Below are positions 2,393 to 7,213 of a stretch of 7,213 bases of DNA, piece by piece; position 1 is the first letter of the stretch, and each line of letters starts with the position of its first letter. The notes beneath the pieces were generated by a model, which was not told the DNA's origin, made no database searches, and was given only the letters and a program-made list of their open reading frames with translations. The DNA is from Pseudomonadota bacterium (lineage in GTDB: Bacteria > Pseudomonadota > Alphaproteobacteria > Reyranellales > Reyranellaceae). Where the stretch lies: positions 1 to 7,213 of the forward strand of contig JAEZHS010000713.1 in the NCBI GenBank assembly GCA_023436825.1. Direction: 5' to 3'. A program made the translations under genes and the position numbers.

Positions 2393-2917
2393 ATGCATCG
2401 TTCGCGTCTCTTCACGACCTTCATCATCGCCGCCTCCATCCTGGCCGCCTGCTCCAACCCCGATCCGGCCGCGCCTGTCGGCCCCGCGGTGCCGATGCCG
2501 CAGATTCAGGCCGCCATCGACAATTCCACGCCCGACGCCGCCCAGCGCGGCATGGCCAACAAGACCTGGCTGTGGGCCGGCAACGGGCCGGCGCAGATCC
2601 ACTATTCGACGGCTGACGGCCGCGACTTCGCCTGGGTGGTCGGCCAGCGCCGCATCTTCGCCGGCGAATGGCAGGTCAACACCGCGCCCGGCGCCAACGG
2701 CCAGTCGATCGTCCAGATCTGCCTGCGCTATCCCGGCGTGCGCCTGTCGGGCCTCAGCCCCGACTGGAACTGCCGCCCGGCCGGCGAGATGTTCTACCAG
2801 ATGGCCGAGCGCGAGGCGGGCGACCCGCTGCGCATCAACGGCCGCACCACCGCGCTGTTCGTGCTCGAGAAGACGCCGGCCAATCTGGCCGAGGTGCAGG
2901 CGCGCGTCAGGAACTAG
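2393..2917 (+). CDS. Putative lipoprotein 2, paralogue of the preceding gene
   Basis: A predicted 174-residue lipoprotein of unknown function. The signal peptide is MHRSRLF followed by a hydrophobic stretch, with lipobox LAAC and the lipidated Cys at 20; Ser at +2 suggests outer membrane sorting (inference). A Pro-rich linker (about 21-36) leads to the same domain as the upstream protein: NKTW (57-60), IHYS (69-72), DGRDFAW (75-81), GEWQ (91-94), CLRYP (C110), NCRPAG (C127) and a C-terminal NGRTTALF segment. Both Cys positions match the paralogue. The gene starts 32 bases after the first one's stop and is surely in the same transcript. ATG 2393 is the only start giving a proper signal peptide, although it lacks an SD and sits just behind a hairpin. 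Its stop codon interlocks with that of the convergent M48-like gene. Confidence 0.85.
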   Translation: MHRSRLFTTFIIAASILAACSNPDPAAPVGPAVPMPQIQAAIDNSTPDAAQRGMANKTWLWAGNGPAQIHYSTADGRDFAWVVGQRRIFAGEWQVNTAPGANGQSIVQICLRYPGVRLSGLSPDWNCRPAGEMFYQMAEREAGDPLRINGRTTALFVLEKTPANLAEVQARVRN

Positions 2918-4404
2918 ATCAGCACGTGCACGATAGTGAGGCCGCCAAGCAGGCCGAACGTCATGACCATGACGGTGAGAAAGCCGATCGCCATGACGAG
3001 AACCGCGAACAGCGGAACGAGCAGCATGCCCAAAGCTCCGACCACGAGGCTGCGCAGCGGGTGAGCCGCGAGGGTGGCGAGGTCGAGGGTGCGCCCGCCG
3101 CGCGCGCTGGCGCCCATGGCGCTGAGGCGGGCCAGGCGCTCGCTCGTGGGCGGCGTCAGGGCCAGCGCCAGGCTACGCCGGTCGGTGACGGCACGACGAG
3201 ACGTCGTCGGTGCGGCGATGAACAGATAGGCAAATGATTCGCCGCCGGGCGGCGGATCCGCCGCCCCGATCTTTTCCAGAGCCTGAGCGAAGGCTTCCGG
3301 ATTACGTGCGAGCTTCACGGTGCGGGCGTCGGTCCAATAGCAGCGATTGCGCCAGAGCAACGCCATGGGCGGTCCCAGGAACAACGCCGTCCAGAGGAAC
3401 AGGATGAGCTTGTAGAAGATCGCGACCAGATAGAAGGGCAGCAAGAGGAGCCGCACCGCCTTGGCCACGAGCACGGGCGCATGGCCGGCGATCTTGTCGA
3501 GGTCGGGAATCGCATCGGCTTCGAGGCCCTCTTCCAGGCCCTCGCCAAGACGCCCCAGGGCGTCGGCGCCCATGCGTCGGGTCACCGAGACGAGCAGGAG
3601 CCCGCCCAGGGTGCGCCACGCCGACCAGCGCAGGGGCAGATCGAGCACGGTGAGGAAAAATCCCAGCGTGCGGAACACTGCCATGATGGCTGTCGCAGCG
3701 TGCAGATCCCCGGCTCCAATCGTGGAGACCAGGCGCGCGGCGACGGCCTCGGTTTCGCTGCGATCCAGGCCGTCGAGCATGCCACGCGTGAAGATCACGA
3801 CTCCCTTGTCAGGCGATCCCAGAGCTGCCGCGTTGACCGTCGGTGTGTCGATCAAGAAGAGCGATGGGGTGGGCGCACCGGCGCCGATCGCCACCTCCGC
3901 CACGATGTTGGCGAGTTGCCGTTCCTCGAAATCGTCGAGGTTTGCGGGTCTTGCCTTCAGGCGCGCGATCAGGTCGTCGCTGCTGCCCCGGCCAAAGAGA
4001 TGGCGCAGCCAGAGCCAGACAATGATTCCCGCGAGCAAAGCGGGAACTGCGGCAGGCGCCAACCCGACCAACGGCCCCGCCAAGAGCGCGAGGTCCCCCG
4101 GACCGTTGACTCGATCGAGAGCCTGCGACAGGCGATCGAAGGTGGCGAGCTGCCTGCCGGCGAAATCGTGGATCAACGAGATGCCGCCGAGAGCCAGGGA
4201 CTCGAACAAGCCGAGGGCGGCCGCGAGCTTCAGGAGGCCACCCACGGCCAGCAACACGAGGGGCGTGACGATCGTGCTCAGCACCAGGCCCACACCCGCC
4301 GAAACCAGCGCGCAGATGCTCGCGACCATCCAGGCCGCGCGGCGTCGCCGGATGAGTTCGTCGTAGAAGGTGGTCCGTCGCGTCGATGGCGGTGTTTCGC
4401 TCAC
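2914..4404 (-). CDS. M48 (HtpX-like) family membrane protein lacking the zinc site; probable pseudoprotease
   Basis: A 496-residue integral membrane protein aligning by eye with M48/HtpX-type peptidases along its length. The start TTFYDELIRRRRAAW (11-25) resembles the TFYD...NRR...W opening of these proteins. Membrane segments are likely at about 26-70, 107-135, 240-272, 315-350 and 451-495. The core has the family marks VNAAALG (190-196), the TRGMLDGLDRSETEAV run (206-221), then AARLVSTIGAGD where active members have an AHExxH...D block. The HExxH positions thus read R224-L-V-S-T228, while D233 remains. The second-helix motif RxREYxAD becomes RNRCYWTD (352-359), with Cys355 at the third zinc ligand. 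ARNPEAFAQALEKI (366-379) and TPPTSERLARL (417-427, normally THPP..eRi..L) are retained. So the fold is kept and the active site lost; a scaffold or regulatory role is inferred. The start is GTG at 4404, 16 bases after the exporter stop, with a weak AGG upstream. No ATG gives the full N-terminus. Confidence 0.8.
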   Translation of the reverse strand: MSETPPSTRRTTFYDELIRRRRAAWMVASICALVSAGVGLVLSTIVTPLVLLAVGGLLKLAAALGLFESLALGGISLIHDFAGRQLATFDRLSQALDRVNGPGDLALLAGPLVGLAPAAVPALLAGIIVWLWLRHLFGRGSSDDLIARLKARPANLDDFEERQLANIVAEVAIGAGAPTPSLFLIDTPTVNAAALGSPDKGVVIFTRGMLDGLDRSETEAVAARLVSTIGAGDLHAATAIMAVFRTLGFFLTVLDLPLRWSAWRTLGGLLLVSVTRRMGADALGRLGEGLEEGLEADAIPDLDKIAGHAPVLVAKAVRLLLLPFYLVAIFYKLILFLWTALFLGPPMALLWRNRCYWTDARTVKLARNPEAFAQALEKIGAADPPPGGESFAYLFIAAPTTSRRAVTDRRSLALALTPPTSERLARLSAMGASARGGRTLDLATLAAHPLRSLVVGALGMLLVPLFAVLVMAIGFLTVMVMTFGLLGGLTIVHVLI

Positions 4405-4420
4405 GGCCGGGACACCGGAC

Positions 4421-5050
4421 CTAACGGTCGGACAGAATCAACCGCACGCCGAGCACCGCCAGCACGCCGCCCATGACGCGATCGAGCCAGGCCTTGGCGC
4501 GGCGGTAGAAGGCGCGCGCCGGGCCGCCCGAGAACAAGAGCGCCAGTAGGGCGAACCAGCAGAATTCGTTGATTGCCACGATCGCCAGCACCGCGCCGTC
4601 CATCCAGCCGGGCGTGTTCTGGGGCAGCACCGACAGGAAGATGCTGCCGAAGAACACCATGATCTTGGGATTGCTGAGCTGCAGCAGCAGGGCGCGCATG
4701 AAACCCTGCCAGCCGGTCGTGTGCGCCGTGCGGTCCACCGCGATCTCGGGCAGGGGATCGCGGGCATGGCGCCAGATCATGACGGCGAGATAGATCAGGA
4801 ACAGCGCGCCGCCGATGCGGAAGGCGACGTACAGCCATTCGAACTTGGCGAACAACGCCTGCAGGCCGTAGAGCGCCGCCGCGGCCCAGGTGAGCGCCCC
4901 CACCATCATGGCGAACGCCGCCAGCAGTCCGCCGCGCCGGCCGGCGACCGCCGACGTCTGGATCACCAGCACCGTCGAGGGTCCGGGGCTCGCCACCGCC
5001 AGCAGATGGACAACGGCGAGGCCCAGCAGGGCGACGGCGTATTCCATCAT
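4421..5050 (-). CDS. LysE/RhtB-family amino-acid (or related metabolite) exporter
   Basis: A 209-residue inner-membrane exporter of the LysE/RhtB superfamily, which export amino acids or derivatives by proton antiport. It shows the family's N-terminal helix ending in ASPGPS (SPGP at 21-24), several hydrophobic helices with a typical polar loop near 94-116, the LSNPK motif (125-129) and FFGSIF after it. The length is right (~205-215). The substrate cannot be read from sequence. Location between ilvH and ilvC invites a branched-chain amino acid guess, but that is only inference. The start is chosen as ATG 5050 (MMEYAVALLG); ATG 5047 is equally possible. A GTG at 5062 has GGAG four bases upstream and would add MPPA, but it lies inside a long inverted repeat whose edge is at about 5055. 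The gene is followed after 16 bases by the M48-like gene, so the two are likely co-transcribed. Confidence 0.92.
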   Translation of the reverse strand: MMEYAVALLGLAVVHLLAVASPGPSTVLVIQTSAVAGRRGGLLAAFAMMVGALTWAAAALYGLQALFAKFEWLYVAFRIGGALFLIYLAVMIWRHARDPLPEIAVDRTAHTTGWQGFMRALLLQLSNPKIMVFFGSIFLSVLPQNTPGWMDGAVLAIVAINEFCWFALLALLFSGGPARAFYRRAKAWLDRVMGGVLAVLGVRLILSDR

Positions 5051-5054
5051 CGCT

Positions 5055-5222
5055 GGGGGCACGCCACTCCCGTGGCGCGTCTTCTCATGCTCTTCCGGAC
5101 CGCGCGCATCCTTGCGCGCTCACGAATCATGGGCGTAGGGAGCTGAAACGACCTTCGGTCGATTCGGCGTGGAAGCTCGCGGTCCGGAAGACCATGACGC
5201 GCCACTGGAGTGGCGCGCCCCC
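5055..5222. repeat. Large imperfect inverted repeat, MITE- or REP-like element
   Basis: The left arm is 5055-5111 and the right arm 5171-5222, around a 59-base core. When one arm is reverse-complemented, 47 of 52 positions match by my count, plus one 5-base insertion (TTCTC at 5082-5086) in the left arm. Each outer part has its own small palindrome: CGCGCCACT-GG-AGTGGCGCG in the right arm and CGCCAC-TCCC-GTGGCG in the left. Inside are two further hairpins: GCGCGC/GCGCGC at 5102-5119, within the left arm and core, and CGACC-TTC-GGTCG at 5149-5161 in the core. The element fills nearly all of the 182 bases between exporter and ilvH, with no convincing gene inside. No target-site duplication is evident. 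It begins 11 bases past the ilvH stop and may end that transcript, but no T-tract follows. Confidence 0.8.
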
Positions 5223-5232
5223 GGCAAAGACA

Positions 5233-5733
5233 TCACAGCGCCTCGCCGCCGCGCGACATGGCGACGATGCCGGTGCGACCGACATCGACCAGGCCGAGCC
5301 CCTCCATCAGGCCGATGAAGGTCTGGACCTTGTCGGAGTTGCCGGTGACCTCGAAGACGAAGGAATCCATCTTGGCGTCGATCACCTTGGCGCGGAACAC
5401 GTCGGCGAGACGCAGCGCCTCGACACGCTTGTCGCCGCTGCTCTTGACCTTCACCAGGGCGAGCTCGCGCTCGATATGCGGGCCCTCGACCGTGAGGTCA
5501 CGCACTTTGTGCACGGGCACCAGCCGGTCGAGCTGGGCCTTGATCTGCTCGATCACCATGGGCGTTCCGGTCGTCACGATGGTGATGCGCGAGAGGTTCG
5601 CCTTGGCGTCGGTCTCGGCGACGGTCAGGCTCTCGATGTTGTAGCCGCGGCCCGAGAACAGGCCGACCACGCGCGCCAGGATGCCGGGCTCGTTGTCGAC
5701 CAGCACCGAGATGGTGTGGCTGGACGTCATCAT
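5233..5733 (-). CDS. ilvH: Acetolactate synthase small (regulatory) subunit
   Basis: This is the regulatory subunit of acetohydroxyacid synthase. It binds the catalytic IlvB subunit, raises its activity and confers valine feedback inhibition. At 166 residues it has the family's usual length. The N-terminal ACT domain (about 6-80) contains SVLVDNEPGILARV and the GLFSGRGYNIESLTV stretch. N14, G17 and N32 match E. coli IlvH N11, G14 and N29; the last two are known from valine-resistant mutants, so feedback control is probably intact. The C-terminal domain follows from HIERELALVKV (about 85-165) and ends in the family's SRG motif. The start is taken as ATG 5733 (MMTSSHTISVL), 8 bases after the ilvB stop. 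A GTG at 5745 overlaps that stop as GTGA and would add four residues. Neither start has a clear SD, which fits translational coupling to ilvB. The symbol ilvN would be an equivalent label. Confidence 0.96.
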   Translation of the reverse strand: MMTSSHTISVLVDNEPGILARVVGLFSGRGYNIESLTVAETDAKANLSRITIVTTGTPMVIEQIKAQLDRLVPVHKVRDLTVEGPHIERELALVKVKSSGDKRVEALRLADVFRAKVIDAKMDSFVFEVTGNSDKVQTFIGLMEGLGLVDVGRTGIVAMSRGGEAL

Positions 5734-5741
5734 GGGGGCGT

Positions 5742-7213
5742 TCACACCAGCACCATGCCTTCCTCCGACACCGGCTTGGCGGCACGGTCGTCGGGACCCA
5801 GCAGCATGTCGTAGTGGGCCGCCCCCGACGGGATCATCGGGAAGCAGTTCTCGGCCTTGTCGACCAGAACGTCGACGATGACGGGCTGGTTGATGGCGAT
5901 CATCTGCTTGATCGTGTCGTCGAGCTTGGCCGGCTCGTGGCAACGCAGGCCCACCGCACCGAACGCCTCGGCGAGCTTCACGAAGTCGGGCAGCGATTCC
6001 ATGTAGCTCTCGGAATAGCGGCCGCCGTGCAGCAGCTCCTGCCACTGGCGCACCATGCCCATGTACTGGTTGTTCAGGATGAAGATCTTCACCGGCAGCC
6101 GGTACTGCGCCACCGTCGACAGCTCCTGGATGTTCATCATGATCGAGGCTTCGCCCGCCACGTCGATGACCAGCGACTCGGGGTGGGCGATCTGCACGCC
6201 CATCGCCGCCGGGAAGCCGTAGCCCATGGTGCCGAGCCCGCCCGAGGTCATCCAGCGGTTGGGCTGCTCGAACTTCAGGAACTGCGCCGCCCACATCTGG
6301 TGCTGGCCCACTTCGGTGGTGATGTAGTGGTCGCGGTCCTTGATGTGATGATAGAGGCGCTCCAGCGCGTACTGCGGCTTGATCGTCTCCTTGTCGGCCT
6401 TGTAGGCGAGGCAGTTGCGCGCCCGCCACTTGTCGATCTCGGCCCACCACGCCTTCAGCGCCTTGTGGTCGACCTTGGGCTGCCTGGCCTTCCACACGCG
6501 GATCATGTCCTCCAGCACGTGGCCGGCATCGCCCACGATCGGCAGATCGACGCGCACGTTCTTGTTGATGGAGCTGGGATCGATGTCGACGTGGATCTTC
6601 TTCGACTTGGGCGAGAACTCGGCGAGCTTGCCGGTGATGCGATCGTCGAAGCGCGCGCCGATGTTGATCATGACGTCGCAGTGATACATCGCCAGATTGG
6701 CTTCGTAGGTGCCGTGCATGCCCAGCATGCCGAGGAACTGCTTGTCGCTCGCCGGGAAGGTGCCGAGCCCCATCAGCGTATTGGTGATGGGATAGCCCGT
6801 CATGTGCACGAACTGCGTGAGCAGCTTCGAGGCCTTCGGGCCGGCGTTCACGATACCGCCGCCGGCATAGAAGATCGGCCGCTTGGCGCCGGCGATCAGC
6901 TCGATCGCCTCCTCGACCTTCTTGAGCTCGGGCTTCACCTGCGGACGATAGCTCTTGTGCTGCACCGGCTTCTTGGGCGCCACGTAGTCGTGCTTGTTCA
7001 TCAGCACGTCCTTGGGCAGGTCGATGACGACCGGCCCCGGGCGGCCCGATCGGGCGACATAAAACGCCTCGTGGACGGTGCGCGCCAGATCGCCGACCGC
7101 CTTCACCAGGTAATTGTGCTTGGTGCAGGGCCGCGTGATGCCGGTCGTGTCGGCTTCCTGGAACGCGTCGTTACCGATCAGATGAGTCGGCACCTGGCCG
7201 GTCAGGCAGACGA
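5742..7213 (-). CDS. ilvB: Acetolactate synthase large (catalytic) subunit, N-terminus beyond the window
   Basis: This is the ThDP-, Mg- and FAD-dependent catalytic subunit of acetohydroxyacid synthase. It condenses pyruvate with pyruvate or 2-oxobutyrate, the committed step of branched-chain amino acid synthesis. About 489 residues are visible; roughly 80-110 N-terminal ones, including the catalytic Glu region, lie beyond the right edge. The open frame continues to the edge (VCLTGQVPTHLIG), so the GTG at 7193 is not the start. Visible marks are GQVPTHLIGNDAFQ, the FAD/linker domain with LGMHGTYEAN and RFDDRITGK, the C-terminal ThDP domain with the motif starting at 6155 (GEAS...ILNN, ending near 6069), MGMVRQWQELLHGGRY, and FPMIPSGAAH at the end. 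The Asp of the ThDP motif GD(G/A) is Glu here. Residues at the classical herbicide-contact sites (Pro in QVP, Ala in DAFQ, Asp in FDD, Trp in RQWQ, Ser in IPSG) are the sensitive-type ones. Symbols ilvB, ilvI and ilvG are interchangeable for such genes. Confidence 0.97.
   Translation of the reverse strand, partial: VCLTGQVPTHLIGNDAFQEADTTGITRPCTKHNYLVKAVGDLARTVHEAFYVARSGRPGPVVIDLPKDVLMNKHDYVAPKKPVQHKSYRPQVKPELKKVEEAIELIAGAKRPIFYAGGGIVNAGPKASKLLTQFVHMTGYPITNTLMGLGTFPASDKQFLGMLGMHGTYEANLAMYHCDVMINIGARFDDRITGKLAEFSPKSKKIHVDIDPSSINKNVRVDLPIVGDAGHVLEDMIRVWKARQPKVDHKALKAWWAEIDKWRARNCLAYKADKETIKPQYALERLYHHIKDRDHYITTEVGQHQMWAAQFLKFEQPNRWMTSGGLGTMGYGFPAAMGVQIAHPESLVIDVAGEASIMMNIQELSTVAQYRLPVKIFILNNQYMGMVRQWQELLHGGRYSESYMESLPDFVKLAEAFGAVGLRCHEPAKLDDTIKQMIAINQPVIVDVLVDKAENCFPMIPSGAAHYDMLLGPDDRAAKPVSEEGMVLV

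Follow-up and report, generated by a model that had tools for sequence, protein, structure and literature searches.

The window analysed here, positions 1 to 7,213 of contig JAEZHS010000713.1 of a Pseudomonadota bacterium of the Reyranellaceae (assembly GCA_023436825.1), carries on its minus strand a gene predicted to encode a membrane protein of peptidase family M48 in which the catalytic zinc site has been lost. Genes in the window are arranged as ilvB-ilvN-lysE-M48 on the minus strand, after which come, on the plus strand, a pair of lipoprotein-like genes, and then ilvC. An original prediction, made from the letters of the sequence, had described a 496-codon frame free of stops, in which RLVST and a Cys occupy the places of HExxH and the third zinc ligand. 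It gave no strand; the frame, from 4404 to 2914, and the coordinates of both motifs are confirmed on the minus strand. Frame 1 of the plus strand across 2914..4404 contains a stop. The gene and the features within it are as follows.

2914..4404, minus strand: predicted M48-fold membrane pseudoprotease gene, 496 residues, GTG start at 4404, stop at 2916-2914
3826..3834, minus strand: putative edge strand N191-A192-A193, aligned by motif with N-A-F of active M48
3721..3735, minus strand: former HExxH, reads R224 L225 V226 S227 T228 (alignment of 365 proteins)
3706..3708, minus strand: D233, conserved Asp after the former active-site helix
3352..3354, minus strand: W351, signature of the zinc-less clade, Ser in 98% of active sequences
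3340..3342, minus strand: former third zinc ligand (Glu in active M48), reads C355 (alignment of 365 proteins)
3136..3156, minus strand: former active-site plug HPx4R, reads T417 P418 ... R423; His lost, Pro and Arg kept

The M48 protein and its former catalytic site

Assignment to an M48/HtpX-type family, as first proposed, is borne out by both sequence and fold. The Pfam model Peptidase_M48 (PF01435) is matched at 27.6 bits, above its gathering score of 20.3, and a solved HtpX fragment (PDB 3cqb) aligns in register across the motif with an E-value of 3.1e-5. The AlphaFold model of the 496-residue protein, with a predicted local distance difference test score (pLDDT) of 82.3 and a predicted template modelling score (pTM) of 0.81, gives a fold match to M48 of moderate strength and places the protein within the M48 fold. 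Eight HtpX models of NCBIfam are matched as well, all under their curated cut-offs (the best at 86.9 against 355 bits), and in a search of PDB sequences up to E 1 Ste24/ZMPSTE24 is unmatched, the match to it being one of fold. Judged in this way the predicted protein is a member of peptidase family M48, though it lies outside the HtpX equivalogs.

To place its residues, an alignment of 365 distinct sequences was assembled, comprising the query, 221 listed matches and 143 M48 frames from fetched loci. A first search gave 101 homologues; a second, from an alignment of distant members, gave 4245 matches at E <= 1e-10, of which 120 were listed (those unlisted may include active M48). Proteins were clustered at 90% identity and some may share source organisms with the loci, the start codons of homologues were assigned mechanically, and retrieval of the active rows by their resemblance to the query may have favoured LemA-linked M48. 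The ligand columns 224/225/228/355 read HEHE in 127 of the sequences (active), and the site is absent from the other 238 (referred to here as dead). Dead rows were divided into 79 close relatives, selected by Arg224, which is hence at 100% among them by construction, and the 159 deeper rows that remain.

In this alignment R224, L225, T228 and C355 of the window's protein occupy the H/E/H/E columns, and HExxH is found nowhere in its 496 residues. HExxH is the general M48 state and the His of the HPx4R plug is a motif of the family (PMC7950410, in excerpt). The protein lacks all three marks of an active M48 enzyme, namely HExxH, the third-ligand Glu and the plug His, and the claim that every zinc ligand is replaced holds. 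Conservation of the replacing residues had been suggested as a check, and the outcome is mixed: among the 79 close members L225 is found in 100% and C355 in 97%, while position 228 varies, with Ala in 68% and Thr in 21%. None of the close rows has His in the plug column, where two are gapped.

Around the lost site the landmarks of the family are retained, as had been noticed at the outset. N191 is present in 100% of close dead, deeper dead and active sequences alike, A192 in 100, 96 and 97%, D233 in 98, 100 and 100%, R354 in 100, 100 and 97%, and D359 in 98, 100 and 100%. The dead clade is marked by three substitutions, F193 to Ala, G246 to Thr and S351 to Trp. By alignment of the motif, N191-A192-A193 would be equivalent to the edge-strand residues N105, A106 and F107 of BepA; in that protein the edge strand touches the client LptD and is needed for degradation and chaperone-like activity alike (PMC8423444, in excerpt).

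Constancy of C355 among close members raises the question of new chemistry at the old site, for instance a Cys355 nucleophile or a different metal. Such a conversion can practically be dismissed: position 355 is Arg in 89% of the deeper rows, and the residues shared by at least 95% of the 79 close members include no His and, as Cys, only C31 and C355, on which ground a new conserved His/Cys metal site was rejected.

The zinc-less clade

Loss of the site goes beyond chance, being shared in related form by a large set of relatives. Among the 238 dead sequences none has Glu at 225 or His at 228, one (P0204) has Glu at 355 and three are gapped there; close orthologues with an intact site are thus not found. 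The commonest states of the four columns in the dead rows are HLSR (89), RLAC (51), QLSR (21) and RLTC (17). Selection on the gene is purifying. Across the window and seven related loci (L001-L007; 28 pairs of eight sequences), the ratio of nonsynonymous to synonymous substitution rates (dN/dS), calculated by the NG86 method, is 0.20-0.27 with a median of 0.231. The R224 and L225 codons change synonymously, C355 is TGC in all eight, and position 228 is divided between Thr and Ala, four of each. An overlapping true coding frame, antisense or shifted, was rejected: the five such frames all hold stops and have higher median values (1.15, 0.38 and 2.76 for the antisense, 1.21 and 2.70 for the shifted sense frames).

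These data bear directly on the idea that the gene encoded an active protease until recently and was then mutated, or is in decay. Its presence is patchy (see below) and one dead locus outside the window's group, L237, has a broken frame; with frames intact in the window and L001-L007, dN/dS low, and the catalytic Glu or second His retained in none of 238 relatives, recent mutation or decay was rejected and is scarcely credible. A maintained pseudoprotease, as first suggested, has withstood the three observations named as able to overturn it (no M48 match, an HExxH elsewhere in the protein, or intact close orthologues). On this sequence evidence the product is almost certainly a membrane-embedded M48-fold pseudoprotease, neither a working zinc protease nor the product of a pseudogene.

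The 57 representatives placed in a tree comprise 31 dead and 26 active rows, and all the dead ones fall on one side of a single branch, with a support of 100 in the Shimodaira-Hasegawa-like approximate likelihood ratio test (SH-aLRT). When the motif columns are masked the branch retains support of 100/100 and is recovered in all 200 bootstrap trees examined. It is long, at 2.04 changes per column. The tree is unrooted, and the dead side is taken as derived because HExxH is the general state of M48 (PMC7950410, in excerpt). Within the dead side, rows of the window's type (Arg224, RLxC, no plug His) are nested among the commoner, outer HLSR rows that have the plug His. None of the 159 deeper rows has the catalytic Glu or the second His, and one alone has the third-ligand Glu; the first His persists in 75% of these rows and the plug His in 145. 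Since the close rows keep neither His, a second step appears to have removed both that remained. Read from the alignment and tree, loss of the site is stepwise: the catalytic Glu, second His and third ligand probably went first, followed in the window's branch by the first His and the plug His.

Arginine is seldom found at both 224 and 355. Over all 238 dead rows Arg224 occurs in 81, C355 in 77 and both in 74. Leaving out rows gapped at any of five columns, Arg is present at 355 only in 141 rows, Arg224 is combined with C355 in 73 and with Ala, Phe or Gln at 355 in three more. Exceptions exist, with Arg at neither place in rows reading Q (8), C (3), V (2), E (1) and K (1), and at both in one. 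A strict swap, with Arg224 only where Arg355 is gone, fits most rows and is not claimed.

Gene neighbours and distribution

The depth of the clade, the loss of the plug His and the association of relatives with lemA go beyond what had been predicted. Of 20 distinct loci outside L001-L007, 13 have a lemA gene next to the dead M48 gene and in the same orientation (L008, L009, L010, L013, L014, L209, L210, L238, L239, L243, L244, L245 and L247); for five of them the assignment to LemA is by PF04011. It lies downstream of the dead gene in 12 of the 13 and upstream in one (L008), unlike the active M48 rows, where LemA is upstream in all 158 of 183 that have it (rows retrieved by similarity, with some places represented more than once). 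No adjacent lemA is seen in L011 and L012, whose contigs end close behind, in L015, L016 and L017, in L237, or in L240 (a 7-kb fetch). L011 is the only such locus with Arg224, and with its contig end it is uninformative on whether LemA once adjoined the gene in the window's branch beyond the Reyranella group. Eleven of the 13 LemA-linked genomes have a single LemA above the Pfam cut-off, the one next to the dead gene; of the other two, G458 has two such proteins and G885 has three. These counts may change with better assemblies.

The window's own group differs in arrangement. Adjacent lemA is found in none of L001-L007, and none was found among the seven open reading frames of the window searched with Pfam. 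In all seven genomes of this group LemA is encoded close to another M48, which reads HExxH and RQREYLAD in each. Genes surrounding the pseudoprotease in the window are as follows.

4421..5062, minus strand: LysE/RhtC-type exporter gene, directly upstream of the pseudoprotease (PF01810, 117.4 bits)
5233..5790 (start approximate), minus strand: acetolactate synthase small subunit, ilvN/ilvH type (PF10369 and ACT domains)
5742..7211, minus strand: acetolactate synthase large subunit, ilvB/ilvI type, truncated by the window end (PF02775, PF00205)
2393..2917, plus strand: small lipoprotein-like protein, its stop overlapping that of the pseudoprotease gene in a tail-to-tail arrangement; no Pfam match up to E 1

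A second lipoprotein-like gene at 1707-2360 on the plus strand is likewise without a Pfam match, and the pair separates the pseudoprotease from ilvC. The N-termini of the two products, from 1707-2360 and 2393-2917, contain LAGC and LAAC, and in related genomes the first gene also matches the place of the second, at about 40% identity.

In L001-L007 the dead M48 gene occupies the same spot behind lysE as in the window, with lysE adjoining in all seven at a gap of 19-68 bases. Such proximity could indicate that the protein is a partner of the LysE/RhtC exporter or of the ilv cluster, acting in assembly or regulation of the transporter. We regard this as very improbable: only seven of the 30 best loci carry the dead gene behind lysE, the other 23 keeping lysE followed by the next gene within 184 bases, a distance that leaves no remnant of a dead M48, and in 13 of the 20 dead loci outside the group the gene adjoins lemA instead.

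Distribution of the gene is uneven. The profile is matched by 74 of 75 genomes in the family of Reyranella massiliensis, whose copy of the protein is 70% identical. Only seven of these matches are full-length (E below 1e-200), the rest being partial, at the level of HtpX; the lysE neighbour was found in 52 of the 75. Three genomes without the dead gene have a lysE 92-94% identical to that of the window, closer than in six of the seven carriers. Identity to the window declines for lysE and dead M48 at about the same pace, as would suit a vertically inherited gene that was lost repeatedly; such a history is suggested by these comparisons, with gain a possible alternative. A survey of 385 genomes of the class, with at most four candidates scored per genome, gave a full-length match in R. 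massiliensis alone. Judged by the titles of records, the dead clade extends to Alphaproteobacteria, Acidobacteriota, Chloroflexota, Gemmatimonadota, Xanthomonadales and one bin titled Desulfobulbus. Occurrence is patchy here too, matches far above the HtpX level being found in 1 of 199 and 4 of 150 genomes around a Terriglobia locus, 3 of 201 and 2 of 61 around a Chloroflexi locus, 4 of 150 around an Acetobacteraceae locus and 2 of 82 around Skermanella, where the copy of S. aerolata is accompanied by a LemA.

Several further features were observed among the dead loci. G760, around the Chloroflexi locus, contains a second dead M48 copy (L237/L250), its frame broken by a stop. In L012 and L014, both with Chloroflexi titles, a zinc-ribbon-like CxxC...CxxC segment lies N-terminal to the dead M48; P0107 has an N-terminal segment of the same kind, from a precomputed match to PF13248, which we take to be a zinc-ribbon family. 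Serine/threonine protein kinase genes are present on dead M48 contigs where no LemA neighbour was seen (L011, 2778-3725; L015, 781-3525; L016, 5035-8247), and L017 contains a frame with 62% identity to the one in L016. A separate M48-like frame of 496 residues with HETGH (L248, G002:C26:20500-24000) is unmatched by the dead-clade profile.

Possible roles without proteolysis

The original prediction had offered a scaffold, a decoy, a regulator of an active protease or a part in membrane protein quality control as possible roles. The best explanation overall, which we would accept about as readily as doubt, is that the pseudoprotease holds client polypeptides at the membrane and does not cut them. 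It would act as an M48 protease permanently locked in a non-cutting state, its edge strand capturing clients at the membrane by strand addition, and these might be retained uncleaved until they are assembled, corrected in topology or handed over. Members of the deep clade would do this jointly with LemA, a small membrane protein. Those of the window's group, away from LemA and with the first His and plug His also lost, may function alone, or with the LemA and active M48 encoded elsewhere in the same genomes. Active BepA has been proposed to enter a holding state reversibly via a His switch (PMC8423444, in excerpt). A precedent for a non-catalytic M48 role is provided by ZMPSTE24, which restricts viruses without catalysis and whose E336A variant is more effective than the wild type in pulling down IFITM3 (PMC9601121, in excerpt).

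Regulation of an active enzyme offers another possibility, albeit a rather unlikely one. The dead protein might pair or compete with an active M48 present in its cell, such as the HtpX-like protease linked to LemA, and tune its activity somewhat in the manner of iRhoms on ADAM17; the retained groove landmarks and the second, LemA-associated M48 in all seven genomes of the window's group are compatible with this. In most LemA-linked genomes the single LemA sits beside the dead gene, so no second LemA-M48 pair is there to be regulated, though other M48 proteins may exist in these genomes (further PF01435 matches in G005 and G006). The length of the branch between dead and active rows also makes mixed dimers less likely. 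Still less probable is a role as scaffold or hub, in which the protein would work with LemA to organise other membrane proteins and the groove would be a relic. Linkage to LemA in relatives speaks for such a role; near invariance of the edge strand and the RxR...D motif exceeds what a relic would need, and lemA is not adjacent in the window's group.

The dead protein can be compared with several known systems. With HtpX-type M48 (PF01435, including LemA-linked members) it shares the profile, core fold, edge strand and RxR...D motif and, in many relatives, the LemA neighbourhood; it differs in having no zinc ligand, catalytic Glu or plug His. Ste24 and ZMPSTE24 are multi-helix membrane M48 proteins like the dead protein, but are active zinc proteases. 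iRhoms and FtsHi, as known from the titles of papers, are pseudoproteases that likewise act without catalysis; their folds and hosts are other than those of the dead M48. BepA of E. coli has the N-A-x edge strand and a chaperone-like role, but it is a periplasmic protein with tetratricopeptide repeats that keeps its zinc and represses it by the His switch, both of which are gone in the dead protein (PMC8423444, PMC7950410, each in excerpt).

Pseudoproteases and M48 proteases are both already known. Among the open-access matches listed, no titles or beginnings of abstracts describe an M48 pseudoprotease clade or its link to LemA, and the deep LemA-linked zinc-less clade was not seen there; the main text of a review of inactive metallopeptidase homologues (PMC11266112) contains no occurrence of M48, Ste24 or HtpX. 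Dead proteins among the matches listed, where named, are mostly entered in databases as 'Zn-dependent protease with chaperone function' or 'M48 family metalloprotease', and this set of annotations is, from the sequences, probably wrong on activity.

As of 2016 MamQ was the only LemA member tied to a known process (PMC4902198, in excerpt). More tentatively, and with doubt outweighing confidence, the LemA-M48 gene pair, which is common in bacteria, might be at root a client-holding and not a proteolytic module, the M48 half of which was made permanently non-proteolytic in two steps in an ancient clade and in many species stands beside the only LemA of the genome. LemA is widespread, and a neighbour that does not cut allows one to ask directly whether the LemA-M48 pair needs proteolysis. 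The clade itself forms a natural series of zinc-site loss that would be useful for separating holding from cutting in family M48.
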